A DNA stretch of 24,166 bases, from positions 1 to 24,166 of the IMG/VR virus record IMGVR_UViG_3300046008_000856; one strand, given 5' to 3'. The translations under genes and the position numbers were made by a program. The first letter of the stretch is position 1. The number at the start of each line of letters is the position of its first letter. This document shows, piece after piece, positions 1 to 24,166 of this stretch. Under the pieces are notes generated by a model that saw only the letters and a program-made list of their open reading frames with translations, did not search any database and had not been told where the DNA came from. The stretch comes from a virus.

Positions 1-1399
1 CTTCAACATGAAGTTTGTTGTAGCCAAAAACTTGAGTTTTATCAAGGATTTTACTATTGATGTTATTAAGATAATTGCCTTGATAATTAACAGGTGTAAA
101 TGTATTTGTTTCGCCTGCCATCACATCCAAATAAAACCAAACGTACAAAGGCTTCGGAAAATCAACTCTAATGCTGGTTTCAGCAATTACATTGGTATTA
201 AAAAATATATCCATGTAATTTGGCGCAACAACAATTTTCTTTAAGCCATAGACATACTTCAAATCAACTGCGTAATTGTGACCGTTCAACCTGAAACTAT
301 CATTGTCAATTGTTAGCATCCTAGTTTTTGAGCGATAAAATTTATGTGTTTTATTGCTTTTTATTTCCATTAGGTTTGACATGGATTCAATACCTGCCAA
401 TACTTCTGGTGTAACGGGAACTGCTTTTGTGGTTTCTGAAAAAAGGTTATCTTTCGGATAATTGACAACAGGAACATCTAATAAATGATACGTTGGAAGA
501 TTAAACGTGCCACTTATAAAAATTTGTGCAACAGGGACTTTGGGGGCTGCCATAACTACGCCATTTATCCAAAGCTCGAAATTCCCATCTACGCAAAGCA
601 GTTTTATAGCTGCAAATGAATCGACTATATCAATTTCTTTTTCGTACAAGTTCCAATAAAAGTAAAAATTTTTGTTAAGCAGAAAAAGATTATTGCCTTT
701 TCCTGTTTCTAACGTGATTGATGACAGCCTTTTATCCTCGGAGTTCAACCCTACCAATACCTTAATTTGCCAATTTGAAAATAACTGATACGAGCCGCCA
801 ACTTCGTCCAAATTTAATCCTTCGGGAAATTTCACTCTTGCTTCAAAACACCAATCATTACCGCGAACACTGAGATTTCTTCCAAAATCTTTGAATCTGA
901 ATCCAGTATATTCAGCTCCTTTTTCTTGGTGAACAAAGCCTTCAAATGCGTCATCGTTTGGCTTGTAAGAACTTAGTCTAGTATTTTGTATGCCATTAGT
1001 TACGCCGCCCGTATAAAAAATCCCTTTTTCATTATTCGCCTTGTTGCGAATCTCGATACCCGTTTCATCGCCTATGAAATGGCAAAGGAATTGCGTTTTA
1101 TCAAACAGCGTGTCGCCGTCACCTTTGTTGTGAACAACGTGAAATCCAATTGCGGGGACTATGGAAATAACATCTACAAATTCAGATTTAAAATGTGGCG
1201 TTGGATTTTCAAATTTACCATGTACATCAATTCCAATTGTGCTTTTGAAATTTCGCGCTGGCAATTTTTGAAAAACAGATTGCAGCTCAATACTAATTAC
1301 ACTGACGACTTTAAAATTGATGACATTATCAACAAAATTCAAATCAGCAACATTTGAAGCGGGTTGTGCGTAAGTGGTGTCGAAGATAATGTCATTCAT
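1..1399 (-). CDS. Partial virion or tail-fibre-like protein with a LamG-like stretch, cut by the left edge
   Basis: An uninterrupted minus-strand frame runs from ATG at 1399 to the left edge, at least 466 codons with no stop in the window. It starts MNDIIFDTTYAQPASN and follows the 202-aa gene by 10 bases. The middle (about residues 190-300) reads like a concanavalin/LamG-type beta sandwich: NDWCFEARVKFP, then a run of strands, then FELWINGVVM, which matches the usual 'W-x-NG' end of such domains. This is a fold impression, not a family match. As the last visible gene of a five-gene minus operon of virion-type proteins it is probably a fibre or receptor-binding component. The C-terminus is outside the window. 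Confidence is high that it is coding and low on function. Confidence 0.8.
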   Translation of the reverse strand, partial: MNDIIFDTTYAQPASNVADLNFVDNVINFKVVSVISIELQSVFQKLPARNFKSTIGIDVHGKFENPTPHFKSEFVDVISIVPAIGFHVVHNKGDGDTLFDKTQFLCHFIGDETGIEIRNKANNEKGIFYTGGVTNGIQNTRLSSYKPNDDAFEGFVHQEKGAEYTGFRFKDFGRNLSVRGNDWCFEARVKFPEGLNLDEVGGSYQLFSNWQIKVLVGLNSEDKRLSSITLETGKGNNLFLLNKNFYFYWNLYEKEIDIVDSFAAIKLLCVDGNFELWINGVVMAAPKVPVAQIFISGTFNLPTYHLLDVPVVNYPKDNLFSETTKAVPVTPEVLAGIESMSNLMEIKSNKTHKFYRSKTRMLTIDNDSFRLNGHNYAVDLKYVYGLKKIVVAPNYMDIFFNTNVIAETSIRVDFPKPLYVWFYLDVMAGETNTFTPVNYQGNYLNNINSKILDKTQVFGYNKLHVE

Positions 1400-1409
1400 T
1401 TTTTAAACT

Positions 1410-2018
1410 CTAAGCAGTGATATTGTCAGAAATGGCAGCGTTATAAATGCCATTGCTATCATGTGAAACAACAAAGAAATTGAACCCAGCAGGGAGATTT
1501 GCAAACTGATAACGACCGACCGCATCACTCTTAACTTCATCAACCAGTTTGCCGTTGTCTTTGCGATACAGGCGAACTTTGCGCGATACAGGTACTTTGC
1601 CTTCTTTTGTCGTACCCGATACGGTTGCATTCCCGCTTGGAACAATCAATTCAACAGGCGTAGCACCAATGCGTTGTGGCAGCTTCTTTTGGATTTCGCC
1701 AGTGTAGCCGCCATTAACAAGACAGATGTCTTGCGATGTCATCTTAAAGCGCATCGCGCCGTTATCGCCAAGAGAGAACATTGGTGATTTTGATGCCAGC
1801 AAAAAACGCATAGCAGGATTGCCGTTGTTTGCCTGTAATTGCAGCAAATTTTCTGAAAGCATTGGCTTCGTTATGGACAATGAACCGCACTTTATTTTTG
1901 CTGATGTAATGAGCTTGCCAAACTTGCCGACAATCGGGTTCAATGCGCCACCTGTTTTTTGGTAGCGCGTATTAAGGAGGCGTACCGAGTAATCGGCAAC
2001 AACAATCGCGGCAGGCAT
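1410..2018 (-). CDS. Virion protein with C-terminal carboxypeptidase-regulatory-like (Ig-like) domain, 202 aa
   Basis: The chosen start is the ATG at 2018, which overlaps the upstream stop as TAATG and has GAGGGG upstream; a TTG two codons earlier is less likely. The N-terminal part (about 1-130) is not recognised. The C-terminal 70 residues contain VRLYRKDNGKLVDEVKSDAVGRYQFANLPAG, a classic pattern of the carboxypeptidase-regulatory-like/beta-sandwich fold (charged turn, then G-x-Y-x-F-x-x-L), common as a surface or fibre module in phage virion proteins. It is translationally coupled to the 377-aa gene and followed by the LamG-like protein, which supports a role at the host-contact end of the virion. 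Function is inferred from fold resemblance and context only. Confidence 0.72.
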   Translation of the reverse strand: MPAAIVVADYSVRLLNTRYQKTGGALNPIVGKFGKLITSAKIKCGSLSITKPMLSENLLQLQANNGNPAMRFLLASKSPMFSLGDNGAMRFKMTSQDICLVNGGYTGEIQKKLPQRIGATPVELIVPSGNATVSGTTKEGKVPVSRKVRLYRKDNGKLVDEVKSDAVGRYQFANLPAGFNFFVVSHDSNGIYNAAISDNITA

Positions 2019-3151
2019 TACCAAAGCCCCTCGACGATGATGTGTAACTCGCCCGTGATTGCCGTGTTAGGTGAATCAGCCAAGCCAATTGATAAAATCG
2101 TTTGATTTGGGAACTCCGCCAAGCCCTTGTAATACGAGCCATGTCCTAATGGTCTATTGTGTAGCGGCTGCAAAATACCCTGCAAAATTCCTCGCGTGCC
2201 ACCTTGAAAGATATAAAGAGGCGATACATTAAGAGAGTTGTCAATCGGTGACGGGAAGATGTCGCCACCATTACCAAGCCCTGTTGTAATGCCGCTACCA
2301 AACAAGCTAAATTGAACAGACCCGCCAATTTGAGTGAACGAGCGAGCATACCAACCACCCGTCGTTGTTGTTCTAAAGCCCGTCCATATTGTGCTATTTG
2401 TACCGCTTGACGCAATCAAAATACAGCCAAATGTATCTTCAAGCGTCATTTTTGATTTTGGATAACCGAATGCAAAACCAAAATAGTTGTTCGTTGACGT
2501 TACTGATGGATTGACGAAGAAATAAAACATATCGCCGTCAGCAACCAAAATCCAATTTTTTGGATTTGCGTCAGACGATTTTGGAATGGTGCAGACCGCC
2601 TGCTGAACAGTTGTTGGAAACGCTCTTTCCCCTGTTGTCGCGCCTGTCATAGCTTCAAAGCCACGCACGTTTGCAATGCCATTGTTGATTGCCGTCAATG
2701 AATCATCGACAGACAAATAACAGCGATTTGCAGTGTTTAACGCTGGGCGATAAGCCGCTTTATTGGCTTCGGCAAATTCCTTTACCCATTTTGCGCCTGC
2801 AACCTTAACGAGTGAACTTGCGTCAGGCGTACAAGTTGCTGACGTGGGGATGCCATTAAGTTTTATCGTTAAGCTGTTTGCAGTAACACTGGTAACATCA
2901 AACACGCCTGTGTATTGTTCGTCAGGCAATACAACTTCCAAACGCTGCAATTCACGAAAGCCGTGAGCCATATTAAATGTGATTGTTGCAACGTCACTTA
3001 CAGATGTTACTGACGAGATTTTTGTACTGTCCCTTGTGCCATAACCATTGACTAGGCACGCATCGAAAACACCAATTAAGCTACCGATTGCATTAGTTAA
3101 TTGTGGTGCGCCCACGTCGTCTGAACGAAAAAGCTGAACTTTGTTAGCCAT
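2018..3151 (-). CDS. Phage structural protein of unknown function, 377 aa
   Basis: Starts MANKVQLFRSDDVGAPQLTN. The ATG at 3151 is preferred over the upstream in-frame TTG (3166) because TTGGAG, the ribosome site, lies eight bases before the ATG and would sit on top of the TTG. The protein is rich in Thr, Ser, Asn and Gly with alternating hydrophobic strands (for example VTSVSDVATITFNMAHGF), typical of beta-rich virion proteins. There is no signal peptide, membrane segment or catalytic motif. It sits 15 bases after the duplicated-domain protein's stop and overlaps the next gene by one base. I recognise the style from phage virion loci but not a named family. A tail or appendage component is the best guess. 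Confidence 0.75.
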   Translation of the reverse strand: MANKVQLFRSDDVGAPQLTNAIGSLIGVFDACLVNGYGTRDSTKISSVTSVSDVATITFNMAHGFRELQRLEVVLPDEQYTGVFDVTSVTANSLTIKLNGIPTSATCTPDASSLVKVAGAKWVKEFAEANKAAYRPALNTANRCYLSVDDSLTAINNGIANVRGFEAMTGATTGERAFPTTVQQAVCTIPKSSDANPKNWILVADGDMFYFFVNPSVTSTNNYFGFAFGYPKSKMTLEDTFGCILIASSGTNSTIWTGFRTTTTGGWYARSFTQIGGSVQFSLFGSGITTGLGNGGDIFPSPIDNSLNVSPLYIFQGGTRGILQGILQPLHNRPLGHGSYYKGLAEFPNQTILSIGLADSPNTAITGELHIIVEGLW

Positions 3152-3166
3152 TTTGAAAAACTCCAA

Positions 3167-3982
3167 TTACATGATTTTGATTGACGGCGTAATGATATAC
3201 GGCGTGTTTAGTGGTAATGCGACAGGCGATGCTGGGTCAGCTTCAATGCTTACAACATAATTAGGTGCTGTCTTTGTCGTGATTGCATACCCTACAATTT
3301 CAGCCGAAAACAACGCGCCTGTTGGTGTAAAGGTAATAGCAGGGCAATTTGCGACGGCATCCCCCGTTGTTGTAACAATCGACCAAGCACTGTCCAAAAT
3401 ATCTTCTGCCAAATAACCGCCCACGCTTGTTGGTTGCGATAAATCGGCTAAAACTTTGGCTGTTATATTGTCAGGATTTGTAAATAAGACCGCCTGTAAT
3501 CCAGTTCCACGCGATGACATTTCATTTTTCAAAAGTAAATTCAAGAAAAATTCGGTGTTGCCTTTTGTTACTGGGTTGCAGGCTACATTTGCCGCCACAA
3601 TGTAAGGTGTACCAGCCGTTAAGGTAACTGGTGCTACAGGGTCAGTTACAATGAAAAGAACTTTAGGGCTTGCACCTTTTGTCACAATTGCCGCGCCTTG
3701 AATTGCGCCCGTGTAACTCGCGCCGATTGGCGTAAAGGTTTGTTGAGGATAAGAAAAAACGCCATTTGCAACCGTCCAGTTCGCATCAACTAATGTTTTG
3801 CGAGCGTAGCTACCGCCTGTTGGTTCGGTTAAATCGACATACTTTGTTGCTTCACTTACAGTTAAATTTGTAAATAAAAGCAATTCTAAATTTGCAGGGC
3901 GAATAGAGCTGTCATTTTTGAATAACATTGAGGCAAACAAAGCCTCACCTTCATTTGTGAAAAACGCTTGTTGGACAGCCAT
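3167..3982 (-). CDS. Virion protein made of two tandem copies of a ~130-aa beta-rich domain, 271 aa
   Basis: The two halves align along their length. Half 1 (about 5-135) has LLLFTN, DLTEPTGGSYARKTLVDANWTV, TFTPIGASYTGAIQGAAIVTK and TDPVAPVTLTAGTPYIVAANV. Half 2 (about 140-271) has AVLFTN, DLSQPTSVGGYLAEDILDSAWSI, TFTPTGALFSAEIVGYAITTK and ADPASPVALPLNTPYIITPSI. Domains with 'LFTN...GGYA...L...W...TFTP' are known in phage appendage-type proteins. The ATG at 3982 follows the previous stop after a single base. A duplicated appendage or baseplate-like domain is likely; the biochemical role is unknown. The duplication is seen directly; the appendage role is inference. Confidence 0.78.
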   Translation of the reverse strand: MAVQQAFFTNEGEALFASMLFKNDSSIRPANLELLLFTNLTVSEATKYVDLTEPTGGSYARKTLVDANWTVANGVFSYPQQTFTPIGASYTGAIQGAAIVTKGASPKVLFIVTDPVAPVTLTAGTPYIVAANVACNPVTKGNTEFFLNLLLKNEMSSRGTGLQAVLFTNPDNITAKVLADLSQPTSVGGYLAEDILDSAWSIVTTTGDAVANCPAITFTPTGALFSAEIVGYAITTKTAPNYVVSIEADPASPVALPLNTPYIITPSIKIM

Positions 3983-3983
3983 G

Positions 3984-4442
3984 TTACACCGCCCAATTTA
4001 TTGTGCATTTGTTGAGGGTGTAAATCTTGTCCTTTTCAATGTTTGCGCTGCCTTCAATCGTGGCATCACCACCGAATGCGGCAATTGAGCCGTCAATTCT
4101 TAGTGCCTCAGTTGAATTTCCACCAGCGTCAACCGCATTTGATTTAACACGCAACCATCCAGCAACGCCTGTTTCAAGTGCTTTGAATTGCCAAACTTGC
4201 GAACTGTCTTTATCGATTGTTTTGTCAGCAGCAACGGTTGCGAACTTCAAGCCGTTTGTCTGGCTGCCTGCTGTGAAAGGTAGTCCGCCAACTGTAACAA
4301 CGCCTAATAGCGTCCCCTTAATGGGTGAATCTGCATTTGTTGGGCGTGAGCCTGTATAGATTTCAATGCAGCCATAATTTAATTCAGCGGCAATTGATTC
4401 GAGGGCTTTATTGATAAACCCTGTCGAGTAGTTGTAAGCCAT
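3984..4442 (-). CDS. First gene of the minus structural operon, small virion-type protein, 152 aa
   Basis: The start is the ATG at 4442 (MAYNYSTGFINKALESIAAELNYG), preceded by AAGAGGT. Upstream in-frame start codons would begin inside the 5' hairpin at 4457-4471 and lack a ribosome site. The protein has a short helical N-terminus followed by a Gly/Thr/Val-rich beta-type body (LLGVVTVGGLPFTAGSQTNG, VWQFKALETGVAGWLRV) and ends NKCTINWAV. Its C-terminal part looks like a compact beta domain. It is the promoter-proximal gene of the leftward virion operon, with an untranslated leader holding a hairpin shared with the capsid gene leader. No family is recognised. Confidence 0.74.
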   Translation of the reverse strand: MAYNYSTGFINKALESIAAELNYGCIEIYTGSRPTNADSPIKGTLLGVVTVGGLPFTAGSQTNGLKFATVAADKTIDKDSSQVWQFKALETGVAGWLRVKSNAVDAGGNSTEALRIDGSIAAFGGDATIEGSANIEKDKIYTLNKCTINWAV

Positions 4443-4456
4443 TTGTAACCTCTTGT

Positions 4457-4471
4457 ACGTCATCACGACGT
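4457..4471 (-). promoter_or_regulatory. 5'-leader hairpin with GUGAU loop before the minus structural operon
   Basis: On the minus strand the leader reads ACGTC-GTGAT-GACGT, a 5-bp perfect stem with a 5-base loop, 14 bases before the ATG at 4442 and just ahead of its AAGAGG ribosome site. The 18-mer AGAACGTCGTGATGACGT (4474 to 4457) is repeated exactly on the plus strand at 7715-7732 before the capsid gene. The position relative to the ribosome site suggests a translational operator, an mRNA 5' protector or a boxB-like antitermination element. The structure and repeat are seen directly; the role is inference. Confidence 0.6.
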
Positions 4472-4490: not shown

Positions 4491-4575
4491 AAGTTACATA
4501 GGGTTGAAGGCTCTTTTTTTTAAACGAAATTACTAAAATAGTTTAAAAAAACAATGTGACTAAACCCAATAAGAT
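4491..4575. promoter_or_regulatory. Divergent late-type promoter region with 29-bp dyad (4519-4547)
   Basis: The dyad has arms TTTAAAC and GTTTAAA around an AT-rich centre containing ACTAAAATAGT. The same 29 bases, with one difference, recur at 9563-9591. In the plus direction TAAGAT (4570-4575) starts 51 bases after the dyad's first base, and at the second copy TACAAT starts at the same distance. In the minus direction the same spacing lands on TAACTT (4496-4491), only a weak -10. There is no good -35 box, as expected for an activator-dependent promoter. The Mor-like protein encoded at 16020-16403 is the obvious candidate activator. This is inferred from geometry, not demonstrated. Confidence 0.55.
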
Positions 4576-4606
4576 TGCGGCATATTATTTTTTTAGGAGT
4601 TTAGGC

Positions 4607-6565
4607 GTGGACTACTTGTCTAACATGGGAAACCAAAGAAAAAAACTTTCTAGCGGGGCGAATTCGTCAGTGCAAGGCGAGTTGGTCACACCTGCGCCTA
4701 CGAATTACACAAAACCTAAAGCATTGCCTAACGAAACATTTATTGATGGTCAAAAGGCAAGTACCGCCGTTGGCAGACCAAATCCGCAGATTGGACAAAC
4801 ACAACAGGCATTACCCAAACCAAGTGCATTGAATGGTGAATTATTTACACAATCGCCTGCTAACTTTAAGCCAACGCCAGCTATTCAAAATCCCGCTATT
4901 GATGGTCAGGTTTCACGCCCTCTCGCAACGGTAAATAATCAAATAAAGACTACGCCACTAAATATAGGCTCTAGTTCGGCAATAAATGGCGAGCTGGTTA
5001 CTTCAACGCCAACGGCATTTAAGCCAAGCCCTATGGGTCAAGGCTCTATTATTGATGGTCAGGTTTCACGTCAGCCATTAGCGGGAACTCAATCACTTAC
5101 GCAGGCGGTTCAAAAACCACCAATGCCGCCGTATCAACCCACCGCGAATCCTGTTAATCAATATGGCGGAATGCCGCCTAATGGCAATGCAGGCAATGTA
5201 GGTAATGTAGGTGCATCGTCACCACCGCCGCCAGCTCAAAGTATCACAAGCAGATTAGCAGGCGGAATGAGTAGATTGTCTGCTGCAATGCCAGCGATTC
5301 AAGCAGGAATGAATGCCAGCAACATGATGAATCAAGAGGCTAATTTTGCTAAAAACATTCATGCGGGTTCAATTGCTGACCCGAATTTTGGAAATGAATT
5401 GATGGGTACTGCCCCGAAAAAAAGTTTTTCACGAACAAGCACACCTGCATCTAATCCAACAACAGAGAATGCAGCTATCGGTCGTGGAGGAATTCCAGTT
5501 GTACCAGAGCAATATATCAATTCACGCGCTGGAAAAATTGAGAATCCTGCTTACAGGCAATATATGGCAAGCCATCCACAACAAGCTGCTACACCTGCTA
5601 AAGCGGCAGTTCCACCAGCAAATCAAGCGGCAGTAAATCAAGCGACAGCACCGCAACAAGCTGTAAATCATACGCCGCCAAATTACAGCTTATCTGACCC
5701 CAAAAAAGCATTAGCAACCCACGCTGAAATTTTATTGAACGGTCAAACGCCAACACAACCTGACAACAGACCTAAGATGCCGACATCAATGAATGATGTT
5801 ACAAGCGGTACTGGCTACATCAAGGGTGGCAATGGCGCATTCAAAAATGGAATGGGATTTATCCAAAATGAAAATGGCATGATGGGAAGTGACGGCAAGC
5901 AGCGTACACCGCAACGCGGTTTATCAATGCCTACTTCTGATAATCGCATGGACATTAACGTATTAGACAGATTAGAGGCGCAGCGTGCGTCAGGTGCAAT
6001 TACTGCTGCACAAGCAGGAAAAATCTACACGCAATATCAAGAGCAAGCACAGGCAGATGCAATTCAAAAACTACCACTTGAGCAACGCGCACAAGCCGCA
6101 ATGCAATTATCGGCGGGTCGCGGGAACGTTCAAGCCGCACAGGAATTGACGAATCAGCAACAAATTGAAGGGCAAAACGCCGTACAAAATCGCCAGCTTG
6201 CCAACACTGAAAAAACAACTGACCACACAATCAATAATCCAGTTCAGCAACTAGCCGAGCATAAGGCAGTACTTGAAATGATGGCAGCAAGCAAAGACCC
6301 CGCCGAAGCAGAACAGGGGAAACAAGGATTGGCGCAACTTGCCGCGCTTACTCCAACGCCGCTTGAAAAATTAAAAACAAAACAGTTTGACCCAACAACA
6401 GGATTACCGCTTGCTGAACAAGAAGAATTCGGCAATCCACTTACAGGTCAAATTTATAGTCGCGGCGAAAAAAGAAGCGTTGGTGGTGCGCCGCCAGAAG
6501 GTACAGAGGGAGTGCTAGATGGAAAGCGAGTAAGGGTAGTTCGCGGTCAACCTGTACCAATTTAA
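4607..6565 (+). CDS. Low-complexity repeat-bearing phage protein, 652 aa (possible internal or ejected virion protein)
   Basis: The chosen start is the GTG at 4607, which has AGGAG seven bases upstream. An earlier in-frame GTG at 4556 would lie upstream of the predicted transcript start near 4582. The N-terminal 170 residues hold three degenerate repeats of about 51 aa, each with GEL(V/F)T...(A/S)PT/AN(F/Y)...IDGQ; the DNA ATTGATGGTCAGGTTTCACG occurs exactly at 4898-4917 and 5051-5070. The rest is rich in Gln, Asn, Pro and Ala, with a helical Gln-rich part (about 470-560). There is no enzyme motif. It is the first gene of the rightward head operon, upstream of the scaffold and capsid genes, where N4-gp56-type phages can carry internal proteins. 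Function is unknown; coding status is secure. Confidence 0.72.
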   Translation: MDYLSNMGNQRKKLSSGANSSVQGELVTPAPTNYTKPKALPNETFIDGQKASTAVGRPNPQIGQTQQALPKPSALNGELFTQSPANFKPTPAIQNPAIDGQVSRPLATVNNQIKTTPLNIGSSSAINGELVTSTPTAFKPSPMGQGSIIDGQVSRQPLAGTQSLTQAVQKPPMPPYQPTANPVNQYGGMPPNGNAGNVGNVGASSPPPPAQSITSRLAGGMSRLSAAMPAIQAGMNASNMMNQEANFAKNIHAGSIADPNFGNELMGTAPKKSFSRTSTPASNPTTENAAIGRGGIPVVPEQYINSRAGKIENPAYRQYMASHPQQAATPAKAAVPPANQAAVNQATAPQQAVNHTPPNYSLSDPKKALATHAEILLNGQTPTQPDNRPKMPTSMNDVTSGTGYIKGGNGAFKNGMGFIQNENGMMGSDGKQRTPQRGLSMPTSDNRMDINVLDRLEAQRASGAITAAQAGKIYTQYQEQAQADAIQKLPLEQRAQAAMQLSAGRGNVQAAQELTNQQQIEGQNAVQNRQLANTEKTTDHTINNPVQQLAEHKAVLEMMAASKDPAEAEQGKQGLAQLAALTPTPLEKLKTKQFDPTTGLPLAEQEEFGNPLTGQIYSRGEKRSVGGAPPEGTEGVLDGKRVRVVRGQPVPI

Positions 6566-6586
6566 CCAGTTACGCAGCCATGCGTT

Positions 6587-6628
6587 AAAAACAAAAAGCC
6601 CACATCGAATTAACAACGTGAGCTTTTT
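6587..6628. terminator. Bidirectional intrinsic terminator, stronger on the minus strand
   Basis: The arms 6593-6603 (AAAAAGCCCAC) and 6618-6628 (GTGAGCTTTTT) pair over 11 bases with one C/A mismatch around a 14-base loop. On the minus strand the stem ends in CTTTTTGTTTTT, a strong U-tract ending the crRNA-like transcript. On the plus strand it follows the 652-aa gene by 27 bases with only five T residues. The A-run of the second CRISPR-like repeat's handle is part of the stem. Confidence 0.75.
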
Positions 6629-6717
6629 AGCTGCCTATTCGGCAGTGAACTTTAACGCTAGGGTTTTGAAAGCATCGCAACCACTGATTTTCTAAGCTGC
6701 TTATTCAGCAGATAACG
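6588..6717 (-). ncRNA. Predicted ~130-nt crRNA-like small RNA (repeat-spacer-repeat-terminator)
   Basis: A minus-strand transcript is predicted to begin at 6717/6716, seven to eight bases after a perfect TATAAT (6729-6724), and to end in the U-tract near 6588. Its 5' end is exactly the first base of a type I-F-like repeat (6716-6689). A 38-base spacer (6688-6651), a second repeat (6650-6623) and the terminator hairpin follow. If cleaved by a host Cas6f it would give one crRNA with the 5' handle CUUAGAAA and a 3' hairpin with stem CUGCC/GGCAG. There is no open reading frame of note in this stretch. The locus is antisense to plus-strand read-through from the 652-aa gene into the scaffold gene. 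Function (RNA anti-CRISPR or phage-targeting guide) is inference. Confidence 0.7.
6623..6716 (-). CRISPR. Two type I-F-like CRISPR repeats with one 38-base spacer (orphan mini-array)
   Basis: On the minus strand, repeat 1 (6716-6689) begins GTTATCTGCTGAATAAGCAG and ends CTTAGAAA. Repeat 2 (6650-6623) begins GTTCACTGCCGAATAGGCAG and ends CTAAAAAG. The well-known I-F repeat of Pseudomonas and Escherichia, recalled from memory, is 28 bases, begins GTTCACTGCCGTATAGGCAG and ends in a CTAAGAAA-type handle. Repeat 2 matches its first 20 bases at all but one loop base. Between the two repeats the stem pair C-G becomes T-A on both sides (CTGCC/GGCAG versus CTGCT/AGCAG) and the GAATA loop is unchanged, so pairing is conserved. 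The canonical I-F spacer is 32 bases; here it is 38. No cas gene, leader or further repeats are seen. Confidence 0.72.
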
Positions 6718-6723
6718 GTTGTG

Positions 6724-6752
6724 ATTATAACAGATTCGCAGTCATGCGTTAA
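6724..6752 (-). promoter_or_regulatory. Promoter of the crRNA-like RNA (TTAACG-17-TATAAT)
   Basis: On the minus strand TTAACG (6752-6747, 4 of 6 to consensus) is followed by 17 bases and a perfect TATAAT (6729-6724). The expected start at 6717 coincides with the first repeat's 5' end. The CGCA-N4-TGCG palindrome (6737-6748) lies across the spacer, suggesting repression or activation by a dimeric regulator. Confidence 0.65.
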
Positions 6753-6806
6753 ATGACAAAACTTTTTTAACTTTCGCACCTATGCGTCAAATAGAAACAG
6801 GAAATT

Positions 6807-7667
6807 ATGAGCGAAGAAATCAGCGATTACGATTTATTGATTCAAGACCACGAAGAAGCCGTGACACCACCAGACGATTCGGCAGTCGTCAAACCACCAG
6901 CGGAGAGTGTAATTCAGTCAACTGATACCACTGTCCCTAAGAGTGAATTTGAAGGTTTTGACGGTATCGCAACACCCGATGGAAAGCGCGTAATTCCATT
7001 TTCGCATCTTGACGAGAAAAACAAACAACTCGCGGAGGCGAATCAACGGTATCAAGATTTAGTTAATCAAATTGAAGCATTCAAGCAACAAGGACAGGGT
7101 GTAGCTACCCCTATCATTTCGCAAGATGCTTTAGACAAGTTAGCTGAACTTAGAGAGTACGACGAGGAAGCGGCAAATGTTTTTGAAAAAACGTTGCAAG
7201 ACTTAGCCGCTGCCGCGCAACGTGCAAATCAACTTGAGCAGGCGGAACTTGCTAAACAGCAACAAACCGCCGCGCAAGAAGAAGCACAGCAACAGGCAAT
7301 CATTGAAAGTTATCCGAATTTAAAGGCAATGCAACAAAACCCAGAGGCATGGGCGCAAGCTGGGAAAATTTACGATTCTTTTTATGAAAACCCTGTGACA
7401 GCGCAATTACCAGAAACGGAAAAAATTGCGAAGTTGAACGATGTTATGACTGCCATGTTAGGTGTGCCAGCGCAGCCGCAGGCAAAAGTAGCACCGCCAG
7501 CCGTAACTCCACAAGCTCAAATGCCGTTTAGTTTGAGCGACTTAGGCAGCGGCGTTATCCCGCCTGCAACAACAGGCTCAAAATCTGTTGAAGAAATGTC
7601 ATCGTTTGAATTGCAAAAGTGGTTTGAAACGCATGATTACGATGATTTGCCAAACGCTTTTGGCTAA
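6807..7667 (+). CDS. Probable head scaffolding protein, 286 aa
   Basis: The ATG at 6807 has AGGA five bases upstream. The sequence has an acidic N-terminus (SEEISDYDLLIQDHEEAV), a Pro/Ser/Thr-rich linker, a long Gln/Glu/Ala-rich coiled-coil region (about 70-170), and a C-terminal part ending EEMSSFELQKWFETHDYDDLPNAFG. An acidic, highly helical protein directly before the major capsid gene is the usual signature of a phage scaffold. No protease motif is seen. The stop is followed by the two leader hairpins and, 85 bases on, the capsid start. The plus-strand terminator after the 652-aa gene and the lack of a clear promoter here leave its transcription source unclear; read-through is likely. Function is inferred from composition and order. 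Confidence 0.75.
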   Translation: MSEEISDYDLLIQDHEEAVTPPDDSAVVKPPAESVIQSTDTTVPKSEFEGFDGIATPDGKRVIPFSHLDEKNKQLAEANQRYQDLVNQIEAFKQQGQGVATPIISQDALDKLAELREYDEEAANVFEKTLQDLAAAAQRANQLEQAELAKQQQTAAQEEAQQQAIIESYPNLKAMQQNPEAWAQAGKIYDSFYENPVTAQLPETEKIAKLNDVMTAMLGVPAQPQAKVAPPAVTPQAQMPFSLSDLGSGVIPPATTGSKSVEEMSSFELQKWFETHDYDDLPNAFG

Positions 7668-7752: not shown

Positions 7753-9030
7753 ATGGCTGTAATTATCCCAGCAGGTGATAAGGCGGCGACGAAAGTCTAT
7801 TCGCCTTATTTGTTTAAGGGGGTGCAATCTGATTTAGGGTTCATGAAAATGAACACAGGAACACCGCCCAAAATTTCTGACCAAAATCAAACCGCGCAAT
7901 CAAATTCTGGTGCGCCGATTGTAGTCAGTACCGATTTAGGTAAAGGCATTGCCGATACCATCCGATTCTCACTTGTCGATATTTTTGAAGGCAATCCGAT
8001 TATGGGTGATGAGAACTTGCAAGGTAAGTTCATGTCAACAACCCAAAGCCATCAAGAAGTCCGAATTGACCAATCACGCTTTGCGATTGAATCAACAAAA
8101 ATGACAGGCTTTAGAACGCCGCATGACTTACGCAAAATTGGCTTAGATGGCTTGTCTGCAATTTCGGCACGCCTTGAAAATCAACGTTGCTTAATTCACA
8201 TGGCTGGTGCGCGTGGCTCGCAAGATTTGGCTGATTGGGCTGTACCGTTTCAAACGTCGCCAAAATTTAATCAAATTATGGTGAATCCTGTTTTAGCCCC
8301 CACTAAAAACCGTCATTTTTTTGCAGGCGGAAAATCAAAATTATCTGACTTAACAATCACTGATGTTCTGGGCTTGGATGACATTGGTACGCTTGGTGCA
8401 ATGCTTATGGAATCTGAGATTCCTATGCGTTCTGCAACGTTTGAAGCTGATATGTGGGCTGCTAACAAGCCGCTTTATATCCTTTGGGTTTCGCGTCGTC
8501 AGTGGGAACTTATCAAACGTCCTACTGCGGCTATCGATTGGAATACCGCTGTCACTAATGCGATGAAGCGTTATGAAGGCGCAAAAGCCCACCCATTATT
8601 TACAGGTGAAGGTATCGTTTGGAACGGTATTTTAGTCAAGCCAATGGACAGATACGCAATTCGTTTCTTGCCTAATGACAAAGTTATCGTTGATGACGGC
8701 GGCATTGATGGCAAAAGCTACAATGAAGTATTTGATACGATTCCTAACATCAACAACTTCCACGTTGACCGTGCAATTTTAGTCGGCGCATCGGCGTTGA
8801 TGAAAGCCTACGGCTCAGGTGGCAGTGGCGCGGCGCAATCGTGGAAGTATTTTGAAACATTAGGCGACCATGACAACAGACTTGAGCAATCAATGTCAGT
8901 CGTTGAAGGCGCGTCAAAAATTCGCTTCAAAATGAAAGGTGCTGACACCGATTTCGGTGTTGCTGTTATTGATAGCTACGCTCCACCGATGAATTCGGCT
9001 GAGTGGAATGCTGCTAAAAAGTTGGCATAA
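7753..9030 (+). CDS. Major capsid protein, N4-gp56 family, 425 aa
   Basis: Forms the icosahedral head shell. The start is the ATG at 7753 (MAVIIPAGDKAATKVYSPYLFKG) with GAAGGA upstream; an earlier in-frame ATG at 7723 lies inside a leader hairpin. Features that recall the N4-gp56/DUF4043 family are the N-terminal 'KVYSPYLFKG', the following GTPPKISDQ and DLGKGIADTIRFSLVDIFEGNPIMGDENLQG, and the later GSGGSGAAQSWKYFETLGDHDNRLEQSMSVVEGASKIRFK. The length is within the family's usual range. It follows the scaffold-like gene and precedes a probable decoration protein, the expected order. Assignment rests on recalled family sequence patterns; I am fairly sure of it. Confidence 0.88.
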   Translation: MAVIIPAGDKAATKVYSPYLFKGVQSDLGFMKMNTGTPPKISDQNQTAQSNSGAPIVVSTDLGKGIADTIRFSLVDIFEGNPIMGDENLQGKFMSTTQSHQEVRIDQSRFAIESTKMTGFRTPHDLRKIGLDGLSAISARLENQRCLIHMAGARGSQDLADWAVPFQTSPKFNQIMVNPVLAPTKNRHFFAGGKSKLSDLTITDVLGLDDIGTLGAMLMESEIPMRSATFEADMWAANKPLYILWVSRRQWELIKRPTAAIDWNTAVTNAMKRYEGAKAHPLFTGEGIVWNGILVKPMDRYAIRFLPNDKVIVDDGGIDGKSYNEVFDTIPNINNFHVDRAILVGASALMKAYGSGGSGAAQSWKYFETLGDHDNRLEQSMSVVEGASKIRFKMKGADTDFGVAVIDSYAPPMNSAEWNAAKKLA

Positions 9031-9532: not shown

Positions 9533-9565
9533 CCCGCGCTGATTCATTTTAGTGCGGGAATTTTT
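9533..9565 (+). terminator. Intrinsic terminator after the head operon
   Basis: CCCGCGCT (9533-9540) pairs with AGTGCGGG (9551-9558), one G-T wobble, with a 10-base loop. AATTTTT follows. It lies 16 bases after the decoration-type gene, and the second copy of the 29-bp dyad begins in its T-tract. Confidence 0.72.
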
Positions 9566-9619
9566 AAACAAAATTACTAAAATAGTTTAAAAATACGTTG
9601 TCATTTTAGTCATTACAAT
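9563..9619 (+). promoter_or_regulatory. Second copy of the 29-bp dyad with TACAAT at fixed spacing (late-type promoter)
   Basis: The dyad at 9563-9591 matches 4519-4547 at 28 of 29 bases. TACAAT (9614-9619, 5 of 6 to the -10 consensus) starts 51 bases after the dyad's first base, as TAAGAT does at the first copy, and no -35 box is evident. The predicted start is near 9626, 23 bases before the GTG of the 76-aa gene. It directly follows a terminator, so it should drive the connector and tail block. The likely activator is the Mor-like protein; this is inferred. Confidence 0.58.
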
Positions 9620-9648
9620 TTGCAAAAATTTACGGGTAAGGCTGAAAA

Positions 9649-9879
9649 GTGGCGACTAAAACTAAAAAAGAAGTTGAACAAGAAGTGATGCCGCAAGGCA
9701 CGGCTTATTCTCACCTAACGCCAGAAGGATTGCACGATGAGTACATCCGCGTCATGGGAAAGTCAGCACAAGATTTGACCTTGCATCAAATGATTAACGA
9801 ATTGATTTTTCAATTTGAATTACAAAAAACACTTACTTATCAAGATGAAGTTTATCAAGACCTTAATCCGCAAACATGA
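9649..9879 (+). CDS. Small phage protein of unknown function, 76 aa
   Basis: Starts with GTG at 9649, with AAGG about nine bases upstream, and overlaps the next gene as ATGA. The sequence is MATKTKKEVEQEVMPQGTAY..., with a lysine/glutamate-rich N-terminus and a helical C-terminal half (HQMINELIFQFELQKTLTYQDEVYQDL). No membrane segment or known motif is seen. It is the first gene of the connector block under the second dyad promoter. Its size and position are consistent with a head-completion or chaperone-like helper, but nothing in the sequence decides this. Confidence 0.65.
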   Translation: MATKTKKEVEQEVMPQGTAYSHLTPEGLHDEYIRVMGKSAQDLTLHQMINELIFQFELQKTLTYQDEVYQDLNPQT

Positions 9880-10487
9880 TTGATTTAGTTAAATTCTCGC
9901 CATTCATATATCCTGCCTTGCCCGAAGTATCGGACATGGAATTTATATCGCATACGCGCCGTGCCTGTGTTGATTTTTGTCGCAATACATTTGTTTGGCA
10001 AGCCGACTTAGAGCCGATGGATTTATTAGATAAGCAAAATACTTATGCTTTATCGATTCCTGATAATTCTGAATTGGTGCGTATTATGCGCGTTGTTGTT
10101 GATAATGATGAATACACAGCAATCAACGATACGGTAGGCACATCATTTGGTTATGCGCCTTATTACGTTTCACATATTGCTGCAAAAGAAATTGACCTTG
10201 TTAAAACACCAATGCAAAACGTGGCGGCTGGGCTTCAAATCCGTGTTGCTCTAATGCCTAGTTACACGGCAATGGAAGTCCCAGAAATCCTATTTACGCG
10301 CTATGCAGAAGCGATTAGCTACGGTGCGCTAGGCAATTTGTGTGCAATGGCAGGTAGACCATTTAGTAATTTTGAAATGGCGAAACAATATCGTGAAGAT
10401 TTTAGACACGCTATAAATTGCGCTACGTCAGAAGCCGCACATGGCTTTTCGCGTGCAACTTTCAACACGCAATCAGCTTACATCTAA
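9876..10487 (+). CDS. Phage head-tail adaptor-like protein, 203 aa
   Basis: Begins at ATG 9876, overlapping the previous stop by four bases. The N-terminal pattern IYPALPEVSDMEFISHTRRACVDFCRNTFVWQAD (helix with R-x-A-x-x-FC-x-x-T-x-x-W) is typical of connector/adaptor proteins that dock under the portal. A beta stretch (LVRIMRVVVDNDEYTAINDT) follows, then a helical C-terminus with two Ala-rich helices (AEAISYGALGNLCAMAGRPF). The next gene has a related architecture, suggesting two connector rings or an adaptor plus stopper pair. Family membership is from pattern recall, not a search. It ends TAATG with the following gene. Confidence 0.68.
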   Translation: MIDLVKFSPFIYPALPEVSDMEFISHTRRACVDFCRNTFVWQADLEPMDLLDKQNTYALSIPDNSELVRIMRVVVDNDEYTAINDTVGTSFGYAPYYVSHIAAKEIDLVKTPMQNVAAGLQIRVALMPSYTAMEVPEILFTRYAEAISYGALGNLCAMAGRPFSNFEMAKQYREDFRHAINCATSEAAHGFSRATFNTQSAYI

Positions 10488-11143
10488 TGAGTATCGAAAC
10501 GTTAGTTGAACACATCCGATTTCAAACAGACGATGTAGTTGTGCCATTCTTATTCAATGAATGGGTTATTGTTTCTTACATTGAAGAAGCTGAAAGGGAG
10601 GCGTGCCGTCGTCAAGCGTTACTTGTTGATATGCTTGAATTAGATGTTAAAAATCTTGATTGCAAAATTGAATTGCCGAAAAATATCGTTGCGATTACGC
10701 GGGTAAAAGTACGCTCTCAAAATAATTCGCTTTATCAAACAACGATTCGTGAGCTTGATATTTATAACGCTGGCTGGGAAAACCAATTGCCAGCAGAGCC
10801 GACCTACTATTTTGTAGACCAGCAAACGGCGCATTTGTCGGTTTATCCAAAATTCAGTCACGACGATAAACTTCAAATCACTGCATCACGAACACCTGCA
10901 TCACTTTTGGAAATTAACGAGCGTTATCATTTGGCATTATGTGATTGGGCGTTATATCGTCTTTACAGTAAAAAGGATTCGATTATTTATGATTCTGTTA
11001 AAGCGGAAAATTTCTTAGCTTCATTTATCGGTAGCTTTGGCACACGCGCAGACCTTGAGAATGAAGCAGCAATGCAAAAAGGCGCGATGCAAAAGTATGA
11101 ATTTGGACAAGTTAATCGCCCTGCGGGAACACCTAAAAAATGA
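10487..11143 (+). CDS. Second adaptor-like connector protein, 218 aa
   Basis: The start is the ATG at 10487, overlapping the upstream stop as TAATG (MSIETLVEHIRFQTDDVVVPFLFNE). An upstream extension in this frame would lie wholly inside the previous gene. The layout mirrors the preceding protein: helical N-terminus (WVIVSYIEEAEREACRRQALLVD), beta-rich middle (KLDCKIELP-type strands, 'IVAITRVKV', YFVDQQTAHLSVYPKF) and a helical C-terminal third ('YHLALCDWALYRLYSKKDSIIYDSVKAENF'). Such proteins occur in tail-connector regions of phages with N4-gp56-type capsids. It is followed by a four-base ATGA overlap with the 106-aa gene. Function is inferred. Confidence 0.66.
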   Translation: MSIETLVEHIRFQTDDVVVPFLFNEWVIVSYIEEAEREACRRQALLVDMLELDVKNLDCKIELPKNIVAITRVKVRSQNNSLYQTTIRELDIYNAGWENQLPAEPTYYFVDQQTAHLSVYPKFSHDDKLQITASRTPASLLEINERYHLALCDWALYRLYSKKDSIIYDSVKAENFLASFIGSFGTRADLENEAAMQKGAMQKYEFGQVNRPAGTPKK

Positions 11144-11716: not shown

Positions 11717-12478
11717 ATGTCACAAATTAAATTTAGTCAAAAAACCATTGCAGGCTTACCAGAAGCGTTAGAGGCATTATTATTACAAATCAACGCACAA
11801 GGTTCTGCTGGTTCAAGTGCTTTAACCGCTGCAATCAATGCTGAAATTGCAGCTCGTACTGCTGCTGATACAACTATCAGCAACTTGTTGGACACCGTAA
11901 ATGGTGCATCAACCGTTGAAGGTTCATTTCGTAAAGCAATCGCTGACGTAATTGGTTCTGCACCAGAAGCGTTAAACACGTTAAAAGAAATTGCGGATTA
12001 CATTGCTGTTAATCCTTCTGCAACGGTTGCTGATGCAATTAACGCGGCGATTGCAGCGGCAAATACAGCCGTTACAGATTTGACGGCTGCGTTTGAACGC
12101 GAAAAACAAACCTGCAATTATATGTTGGAAATGGCAACGTTGATGAATGATGTTAAATTCACCAGCACAGCCCCAATTACAGGCAGCACCTTTACATTTA
12201 CTGCTGATGCAAAAATTACATCACAAGCGCATCTTAACATCCTAAATTTCGGAAAAACCCGCATTATCGATTTACTCAATGGTGTTGGTTATGATTTAGA
12301 CACAACGCTTGATTTTGTTTACAGCGGCGATGACACTACTTCAAGCGTTATTACTTTCACAGCTTCAATCCCATCATATTTTGCAAGTGATATTGCTGCA
12401 ATTACGAGTTATGGCGTTGAACTTCAATATACTCGCTCTTTATCCCCAGTAGCTTTGCGTGCTGAATTTAACTCGTAA
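11717..12478 (+). CDS. Fibre-like virion protein with helical Ala-rich stalk, 253 aa
   Basis: The ATG at 11717 is preceded by TTTTTGGAGTTCTCCTC, giving a GGAG site. Residues about 25-130 are an Ala/Thr-rich helical stalk, including SALTAAINAEIAARTAADTTISNLL and IGSAPEALNTLKEIADYIAVNPSATVADAINAAIAAANTAVTDL. The 'APEALNTLKEIADY...NP' motif is widespread in phage tail-fibre and side-fibre proteins. The C-terminal 120 residues are beta-rich (TSTAPITGSTFTFTADAKITS, LDFVYSGDDTTSSVITFTASIPSYF), suggesting a C-terminal trimeric or lectin-like head. A terminator follows its stop. It is probably a tail-fibre or appendage component; the assignment is from motif memory. Confidence 0.68.
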   Translation: MSQIKFSQKTIAGLPEALEALLLQINAQGSAGSSALTAAINAEIAARTAADTTISNLLDTVNGASTVEGSFRKAIADVIGSAPEALNTLKEIADYIAVNPSATVADAINAAIAAANTAVTDLTAAFEREKQTCNYMLEMATLMNDVKFTSTAPITGSTFTFTADAKITSQAHLNILNFGKTRIIDLLNGVGYDLDTTLDFVYSGDDTTSSVITFTASIPSYFASDIAAITSYGVELQYTRSLSPVALRAEFNS

Positions 12479-14858: not shown

Positions 14859-16034
14859 ATGCAACCGATAGAGATTCAGAAATTTTTAGGCTTGCGAAAT
14901 ACAGTAAGCGAAGAACGTCAGCCGCTAGGCGCATTGACACACGCAGACAACATTCTAATTGATAACAGCGGCACAATTATTCGACGCAAGGGCAATGTGA
15001 AAATTGCGAGCGGTCAAATTAGTAGCAGCTACGGAACGCGCGACAATAGCGGGATTTATATTGTTGATGGCGGGAGCTTGTATTTATTTGACGGCGAAAA
15101 ATTTACATTTCTTTGTGACGGAATGGGTGATGGCGTTGTACTTTGGTGTGAAGAATCAGCGAGCTTGGTTTTTGCACAATCAGAACAGCGTTTTGTTGCA
15201 GTATCAAATGGCACTGAAATTATCGACTTGGACATTCCTGTTGTGGATAACTCGACGATTGAAATAAAGGTTGGCGCGTTGCCGAAAATGAAAATTGGAT
15301 TAGCAGCACAGTATGTCAGCAAAAAAACAGGATTACGGGGCGCATTATCAACCCCGCAAATCGTTGATGTTGATGACAATTCAAGCCTGCTGATAACTGT
15401 TCCACCGATTACTGATTACTACGTCAACTTGTATGGATTTTTTGAAAACAGTGGCGCGTGGTCGTTAATTGGTGAGTTCGACAACATCATTGTTATTTCG
15501 GACTATCCGCAAACCAACGAACCTGCTGACGATGCCTATTTTGATGTAGCAGGTATTCCAAGCGACGTTGTAGCGATGACATTTCACTTGGGTAAAATTG
15601 CTGTTGCAACGATTACAGAAAACAAAACGTCACTGATAACATTTAGCTCACCTAGCCTTTATCACTTATTCGATACAATAAACGTAATTGAAATTCCTGA
15701 TTTAATCACGTCAATTGCATCGACAAAAGGGCATTTGTTAATCACTTGTATGCGTTCAATTTTTGCTTTTGACGGCGATAATTTACAGCGTATCGCTAAC
15801 TATGGAACACCCGTTGGGCGACCGATTTGTTTATTGCCTGATGATTCGGCGTTAATTTGGACAAATCGCGGCGTGTGCAAATATCCTGAGTTTCAAAATA
15901 TCACTGAAAACGTTTTTTCAGTCCCCGCAGGTTTTGGCTGCAATACGTCAATGATGGAAGTAGAAGGTAACAAGTTTTTAACCATTGCGACTGATGACTT
16001 GGGGTCGGCTTACAATGCGTCATTTAACGTTTAG
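14859..16034 (+). CDS. Beta-propeller-like tail/neck protein, 391 aa (P22 gp10-like in style)
   Basis: Begins MQPIEIQKFLGLRNTVSEERQPLGALTHADNILIDNSGTIIRRKGNVKI. The pattern 'GL-N-...L-x-A-x-N-...-G-x-I-x-R-R-x-G' is characteristic of a large set of podophage neck/tail proteins, of which P22 gp10 (packaged-DNA stabilisation) is a relative in architecture. The body consists of repeating blade-like units (GIYIVDGGSLYLFDGEKFTFLCDG; SLVFAQSEQRFVAVSNGTEIIDLD; GHLLITCMRSIFAFDGDNLQRIANYGTPVG; PDDSALIWTNRGVCKYPEF), consistent with a beta-propeller. It is the last gene of the rightward structural block, and its 3' end overlaps the convergent Mor-like gene by 15 bases. I am confident about fold style and less about exact function. 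Confidence 0.68.
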   Translation: MQPIEIQKFLGLRNTVSEERQPLGALTHADNILIDNSGTIIRRKGNVKIASGQISSSYGTRDNSGIYIVDGGSLYLFDGEKFTFLCDGMGDGVVLWCEESASLVFAQSEQRFVAVSNGTEIIDLDIPVVDNSTIEIKVGALPKMKIGLAAQYVSKKTGLRGALSTPQIVDVDDNSSLLITVPPITDYYVNLYGFFENSGAWSLIGEFDNIIVISDYPQTNEPADDAYFDVAGIPSDVVAMTFHLGKIAVATITENKTSLITFSSPSLYHLFDTINVIEIPDLITSIASTKGHLLITCMRSIFAFDGDNLQRIANYGTPVGRPICLLPDDSALIWTNRGVCKYPEFQNITENVFSVPAGFGCNTSMMEVEGNKFLTIATDDLGSAYNASFNV

Positions 16035-16403
16035 GTGAGCAACCCAATCATAATTATCATCTTGCTTGCTACTGACATTGGTAGCTTTGCTGTGAGCATC
16101 GACAGGAAGCGCACCTTCATTGTCGCTCAAAAGGCTATAAATAAACGGCTGCGAAACGCCGTATTTTTGTGCTAAAAATCTAACATTCCCGCCGTTGTAT
16201 TCGCTCAAAATAGCGTTGTTTCGCGCTGGCTTATCGCTAAATTCGGATAATTTAAAATAGATAGTTAGCCCCCTCCAACGCTTCAATAAATTTACCGTCA
16301 ACAAACTAATTATACGCCCTGATATTTCTTCATTTAATCCAACGGCTTTTAACGTGCGTTCAATTTCTTGTTCAAGCTCTAAGATGTATTCTGATTTCGA
16401 CAT
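16020..16403 (-). CDS. Mor-family transcription activator, 127 aa (probable late-gene activator)
   Basis: Matches the Mu Mor/C pattern: WRGLTIYF (43-50) standing for the usual 'GG-x-x-IYI', conserved R61, YNGGNVRFLAQKYGVSQPFIYSLL (69-92) as the C-terminal helix-turn-helix (N-G-x-N-x-x-x-LA-x-x-YG-x-S-x-x-x-IY). In Mu, Mor binds a dyad upstream of the middle promoter as a dimer and recruits sigma70 RNA polymerase. Here it is the last gene of the early operon, as expected for a switch to late transcription. Its likely targets are the two 29-bp dyads at 4519-4547 and 9563-9591 (inference). The start at ATG 16403 has no good ribosome site and probably relies on coupling to the gene that ends at 16407. 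The 3' end overlaps the convergent propeller-like gene by 15 bases. Confidence 0.85.
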   Translation of the reverse strand: MSKSEYILELEQEIERTLKAVGLNEEISGRIISLLTVNLLKRWRGLTIYFKLSEFSDKPARNNAILSEYNGGNVRFLAQKYGVSQPFIYSLLSDNEGALPVDAHSKATNVSSKQDDNYDWVAHLNVK

Positions 16404-21222: not shown

Positions 21223-21318
21223 AAAACCAAAAGTTAAAAACTTTAAATATATTACAACTCTTAGTTGTTCATTGCAAACTAAACGATGTTTGAGAATTAC
21301 AACTAATGGTTGTAGTAT
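21223..21318. promoter_or_regulatory. Divergent cro/cI promoters with three operators
   Basis: Operators (15 bp) lie at 21223-21237 (weak, AAAACCAAAAGTTAA), 21254-21268 (perfect palindrome ACAACT-CTT-AGTTGT) and 21299-21313 (ACAACTAATGGTTGT). The leftward promoter is TTGCAA (21277-21272), 17 bases, TAATAT (21254-21249), for the Cro-like gene. The rightward promoter is TTGAGA (21290-21295), 17 bases, TAGTAT (21313-21318), for the CI-like gene. The palindromic operators fall between -35 and -10, or overlap the first -10 base, so repressor binding should block polymerase. Confidence 0.75.
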
Positions 21319-21372
21319 TTTGTCAAAGGTGTATATTTCAAATGAACCATATTTTTTAATGGAGTTACTAAC

Positions 21373-24026: not shown

Positions 24027-24166
24027 CATCGAAGCAACCCGCTTCAAAGTTCTTTAAAAACTAAATTTCAAAGTTTCAATCGGTTGGTTCATTGGTTTGC
24101 TCCGCTAAAAAAGTTGCTGCTTGCATACAGTGAATACTTTTTCCAGTGAATCAAACCGATTGGAAT
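24027..24166 (+). other. Untranslated leader with boxB-like and boxA-like elements and a long inverted repeat
   Basis: No gene is seen in this stretch. It holds a 15-base hairpin GAAGC-AACCC-GCTTC (24031-24045), a boxA-like AGTTCTTTAAAAA (24048-24060, compare the E. coli rrn boxA CTCTTTAACA recalled from memory), and an inverted repeat, CAATCGGTTGGTTCA (24077-24091) against TGAATCAAACCGATTG (24147-24162), with one bulge and a ~55-base loop. This could be an antitermination (nut/put-type) leader or an mRNA-stability element. The role is inference. Confidence 0.45.

Follow-up and report, generated by a model that had tools for sequence, protein, structure and literature searches.

What is the function of a 29-bp dyad that recurs before the late genes of a phage? 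The window analyzed here, the entire IMG/VR record IMGVR_UViG_3300046008_000856 (24,166 bases), carries two copies, each followed by a -10 hexamer. The original prediction took them for activator-dependent late promoters, with a Mor-like protein as the putative activator. Our analysis agrees with this, and the -10 offset of 51 recurs in a relative of the phage. We conclude with considerable confidence, from sequence comparison, that the dyads are Mor-dependent sigma70 late promoter sites, which are doubled and sometimes bidirectional.

The dyads, their -10 hexamers and the late units

Copy 1 of the dyad is TTTAAACGAAATTACTAAAATAGTTTAAA and copy 2 is TTTAAACAAAATTACTAAAATAGTTTAAA (Table 1). As had been predicted, the two are nearly identical (28 of 29 bases match), and TAAGAT and TACAAT both begin at offset 51. 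The consensus, TTTAAACTAAATTA-S-TAATTTAGTTTAAA, is made of two TAA-N6-TTA boxes 13 bp apart that face opposite ways, and 22 nt separate each box from the -10 position that it faces. In both the window and the relative, the boxes of the divergent copy each stand 22 nt from the -10 of their own promoter; the leftward TAACTT is a poor -10 (3 of 6 matches). No TAnnnT was present at the mirror position, 22 nt from the outer side, at the one-sided copies. No convincing -35 was seen at either window copy (0-3 of 6 matches; 0-2 of 6 at copy 2, with spacers of 15-19), and a standard sigma70 promoter scan of these copies found no promoter. GTG 4607 (AGGAG at 4595-4599) is the probable start of the gene behind copy 1, in place of GTG 4556, because the latter precedes the expected transcript start; late transcripts are predicted to begin near 9626 (+), 4582 (+) and 4484 (-). 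A repeat of about 20 bp, TnCGCAnnnATGCGTnAAA, occurs three times at 6560-6797 of the window, between the 4607-6565 gene and the gene at 6807, and is found again at the matching place in the relative (about 26.95 kb) and in the sister phage G004.

Table 1. Positions of the dyads, promoter elements and genes in the window and in the relative G001.
Genome	Feature	Position	Strand	Remark
Window	Leftward tail/fiber genes, other side of copy 1	2..4466	-	PHROG 3758 virion structural
Window	Candidate leftward -10, TAACTT	4491..4496	-	22 nt off the other side of the dyad; conserved in G001
Window	Dyad copy 1, between divergent late (structural) operons	4519..4547	.	Ortholog G001 28976-29004
Window	Mor-type box TAA-TTTCGT-TTA, read on the minus strand; position fits the leftward promoter	4521..4532	-	
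Window	Mor-type box TAA-AATAGT-TTA, rightward promoter	4534..4545	+	
Window	-10 hexamer TAAGAT, rightward	4570..4575	+	
Window	Late gene behind copy 1	4607..6565	+	Start revised to GTG 4607 (probable)
Window	Scaffold-side and capsid genes after the 4607..6565 gene	to 9516	+	
Window	Intrinsic terminator of the capsid operon	9533..9558	+	Directly 5' of the copy-2 promoter
Window	Dyad copy 2, predicted connector-operon promoter	9563..9591	+	Ortholog G001 24127-24155
Window	Distal Mor-type box, TAA-ACAAAA-TTA	9565..9576	+	13 bp upstream of the proximal box
Window	Proximal Mor-type box, TAA-AATAGT-TTA	9578..9589	+	16-mer 9576-9591; -10 22 nt beyond
Window	-10 hexamer TACAAT	9614..9619	+	Conserved in G001, G003 and G004
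Window	Connector/head-completion genes behind copy 2	9649..11143	+	PHROG 437, PHROG 399, SU10_adaptor
Window	Mor-family putative late activator, proposed binder; last early-operon gene	16020..16403	-	PF08765
G001	Late unit: polyvalent protein (4,902 aa), own predicted Mor-type promoter	2430->53297	-	Across the contig junction
G001	Late unit: connectors	24070->17003		
G001	Late unit: scaffold side, capsid	28914->24200		
G001	Late unit: fibers, tail genes	29057->42759		Opposite side of the divergent copy
G001	Late unit: endolysin (lysis), terminase, portal	48332->42804		

The relative, IMGVR_UViG_3300046005_001569 (G001; 65,728 bases), aligns with the window at 82-89% DNA identity over long stretches. 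It is probably a complete genome, since its ends share 125 bases, and is classed as linear in IMG/VR. Four dyads are present in G001, and two of them are orthologous to the window copies. Further copies before other late genes had been proposed as a check, and the other two are of this kind: non-orthologous dyads at 2491-2519 and 48363-48391, each with TAAAAT at offset 51. The distance from dyad to -10 is thus 22 nt in each of the six copies (TAAGAT, TACAAT, TAAGAT, TACAAT, TAAAAT and TAAAAT). TAnnAT has a background of about 0.003 per position in G001, and by rough arithmetic the chance of both new -10s at the fixed offset, in either orientation, is about 5 in 100,000. All six copies were found at gene boundaries before late genes, one of them abutting and slightly overlapping the end of the preceding gene; dyads outside promoter regions, which would have spoken against the original prediction, were not seen. 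The four copies in G001 head five late units, every late unit being covered, and all structural, packaging and lysis genes identified in this genome fall within them. The polyvalent protein of one unit has DarB-like, Strawberry-notch helicase, MuF_C and LPD38 domains.

Searches with the capsid, Mor and head-closure proteins recovered no relatives other than G001, G002 (a near-identical fragment of G001) and two sister phages, G003 and G004, which are fragments with a capsid 77% identical. A 20-mer dyad search of viral contigs gave five chance matches, all unrelated. In genome contigs, a search for the dyad followed by 22 nt and TANNAT turned up two unrelated matches and hence no prophage host. 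By family, the capsid is Phage_capsid_3 / PHROG 334, with its best phage matches in Achromobacter, Aeromonas, Vibrio and Stx-type phages. The head genes of this phage appear unrelated to those of Mu.

The Mu Pm core and the Mor-family protein

The binding site was originally taken to be unlike those of Mu Mor and C, and the comparison with Mor does not bear this out. The Mor site of Mu Pm, located at -51 to -36 (PMC4287176, PMC4390567), was read from AF083977 using the coordinates of these papers. There, AGTAAAGCCGGTTAAT is followed after 22 nt by TATCCT, and the site, AGTAA-AGCCGG-TTAAT, has the same TAA-N6-TTA core and the same spacing as the phage dyads. The 16-bp site is ACTAA-AATAGT-TTAAA in both window copies, AGTAA-AACAGT-TTAAA in G001 and TTTAATnnnnATTAAA in G003 and G004, the last also with TAA/TTA arms and a 6-bp spacer. 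The phage promoters therefore have the elements of Pm in a 16-bp TAA/TTA dyad with a 6-bp spacer centered near -43, 22 nt to a recognizable -10, and no -35. They depart from Pm in not having a single Mor site: a second box lies 13 bp upstream in five of the six copies, and no second matching box was found 13 bp from the Mu site.

Core and spacing were noticed in these phages before Pm was read, and Pm is therefore an independent match and not the source of the pattern. TAA-N6-TTA-N24-TAnnnT matches three times in the window, always at these promoters (rightward twice and leftward once, from copy 1; shuffle mean 0.4), and six times in G001, five of them at these promoters (shuffle mean 0.9; six matches reached in 0 of 200 shuffles), but these counts describe a pattern derived from the same phages and are no test on their own. 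In a scan of spacings from 14 to 35, 24 alone stood out. The half-sites are AT-rich and a match to the short core is weak by itself; the weight lies on the exact spacing. Among viral contigs bearing the doubled box and a -10, only G001 had more than one match, and a Mor protein was encoded in none of the 50 others tested, many of which are fragments.

The 29-bp dyad is absent from G003 and G004. Both the -10 and the leader of their connector promoter (TAGAATTTGCAAAAATTT) are retained, and a single 16-bp dyad, TTTAAT-N4-ATTAAA (TTTAATTCATATTAAA or TTTAATCCACATTAAA), lies 22 nt before this -10. The register is thus conserved while the upstream element differs. A second 16-bp dyad precedes the copy-1 gene in G004, with TACCTT 22 nt away. 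Capsid, Mor and head-closure searches found no Mor gene for either fragment, and because both are fragmentary no sister phage with both a Mor gene and the single 16-bp site was found. The reverse complement of G004 also holds an extra TTTAATGCCAATTAAA dyad before the scaffold-side gene (5198-5213; no good -10 at 22 nt) and a GIY-YIG-like homing endonuclease gene recognized by eye (8196-8906), which is inserted immediately before the connector promoter.

The Mor-family protein predicted at the end of the early operon was borne out by PF08765 (44.8 bits; cut-off 24.9). One such protein is encoded in the window and one in G001 (44.3 bits, same cut-off); the two are 63% identical, and part of the helix-turn-helix region, RFLAQKYGVSQ, is strongly conserved. 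The alignment with Mu Mor covers 55-73 residues, at a low identity (29% over 55 aa). Foldseek ranked Mu C and Mor structures 1-3, at E 0.2-0.4 and with a low-confidence query model (pLDDT 67), and a PDB search with a two-sequence Mor profile gave nothing useful. The early region closed by the Mor gene is lambdoid, with O-like, RusA, NinB and HNH genes. The end of such a region is the usual place of Q; no Q-like gene was seen among the genes tested. In the Achromobacter phage CF418P1 (OQ817832), a distant capsid relative, a weak partial Mor-domain match (27 bits) lies at 43997-44149, and no Mor box was found within the stretch scanned. For phiARM81mr and for an Acinetobacter phage-plasmid, the scanned stretches held no box, and neither gave a Mor match.

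The window Mor protein is the putative binder of the dyad. Made last in the early operon, it would bind the TAA-N6-TTA box centered near -43 and, like Mor at Mu Pm, bring the sigma70 RNA polymerase of the host to a promoter with a -10 and without a -35. The late promoters would be off without Mor. At the divergent copy both sides would be used, and two opposed late operons would be read from one site.

Alternative explanations and the doubled site

As regards the doubled half of the site, a plain UP element is the strongest rival: a Mor dimer would occupy the proximal box only, and the distal half would offer AT-rich DNA to the alpha subunit, the palindrome being incidental. In Mu Pm, a partial UP element does lie at -57 to -52, immediately 5' of the single Mor site (PMC4390567), and one 16-bp site suffices in G003 and G004. 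However, the TAA-N6-TTA core is intact in the distal box of five of the six copies in the window and G001, the halves stay palindromic across copies while the middle bases drift, and the distal box of the divergent copy is correctly placed for the opposite promoter. The Mu activator-polymerase structures also argue against it, and on balance we regard an UP element as rather unlikely. The E. coli initiation complexes with Mu C (PDB 9l0x and 9vw8) each contain four activator chains, which we read, from the chain counts, as two dimers per promoter; for Mor, five chains are found in 1rr7 and 9l0y together. If two dimers act at each Mu promoter, the 29-bp palindrome would be an explicit two-dimer site. 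Two dimers may then bind each dyad, the outer box at one-sided copies most likely holding the second. We know of no precedent for two dimers at a 13-bp spacing.

Because G001 carries ParA, the strongest rival for the reading as a whole is that the palindromes are dispersed centromere (parS-like) sites for the partition partner of ParA, as in N15. In that phage-plasmid, scattered partition sites have been reported to affect late gene expression. ParA (PHROG 164) and its downstream partner (48391-49131) are encoded in G001, where one dyad abuts the end of the partner gene, and a single palindrome repeated at four scattered places in a ParA genome resembles the N15 arrangement. A centromere, however, needs no set distance to a -10, and here, unlike in N15, all six copies have the 22-nt spacing and are aimed at a late gene. 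Moreover, another dyad stands in the same promoter register in G003 and G004, the core and the spacing are those of Mu Pm, and no ParB domain is recognized in the partner. The fixed -10 geometry in particular makes partition sites improbable. ParA and its partner together span 48391-49838 of G001, adjoining the dyad, and this lineage may live as a phage-plasmid. The dyad might instead be an operator at which a CI-type lysogeny repressor, or another phage helix-turn-helix protein, silences the late genes. Both phages encode CI/Cro-type regulators, and palindromes next to promoters are typical operators. This candidate was rejected as very improbable because the dyad is missing from the CI-Cro divergent regions (window 21231-21372, G001 11919-12045), where the repressor must bind; none was found in the early region of G001 either, and late promoters without a -35 would need an activator anyway. 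The almost purely A+T arms could also suggest a functionless chance repeat, to which we attach practically no weight: the dyad pattern (up to three mismatches) occurred in 0 of 100 shuffled windows and twice in the real one, position and sequence are conserved in G001, which is 82-89% identical in DNA, and the new G001 copies stand at new late genes with the -10 spacing unchanged.

Comparison with Mu and lambdoid late control

To our knowledge, mapped Mor/C-type promoters have come only from Mu and its close kin. The Mor-dependent reading places the box and spacing of Mu in a phage with unrelated head genes, and this yields a predictive rule for late promoters of phages with Mor proteins: TAA-N6-TTA, with TAnnnT 22 nt after the 16-mer. 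It further suggests that a single site can be enough for two operons facing opposite ways. The use of two activator dimers at each promoter may be general, and a naturally doubled site makes this testable.

As in the Q control of lambdoid, 24B/Stx-like podoviruses, the activator gene comes at the end of an O-like/RusA/NinB early region; unlike Q, which antiterminates at one promoter, the Mor-like protein would activate several. We tentatively propose, as a possibility still open to doubt, that in a lambdoid, podovirus-like lineage with ParA a Mor-family protein took over from Q as the sole late switch, and that its site became a symmetric two-dimer box firing divergent late operons. If this is true, the four-chain state of the Mu activator-polymerase structures would be made explicit in DNA.

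The late promoters of Mu (lys, I, P and mom) with C offer the same plan of several late promoters and one Mor-family activator, but C sites have ATAAC-type half-sites and not AGTAA-N6-TTAAT (oligos, PMC4461284). Mu uses a relay from Mor to C, whereas one Mor-family gene was found in G001. Mu also differs from this phage in that the latter combines a 24B-like head module with lambdoid early genes and, in G001, with ParA. The likeness to Pm and Mor lies in the core, the 22 nt to the -10, the lack of a -35 and a Mor-family gene closing the early region. The spacer is A+T-rich in these phages and G/C-rich in Mu, and Pm drives one middle operon from one box. What goes beyond Mu is that in the window and G001 two opposed boxes are joined in a 29-bp palindrome, which heads all late operons of a non-Mu phage.
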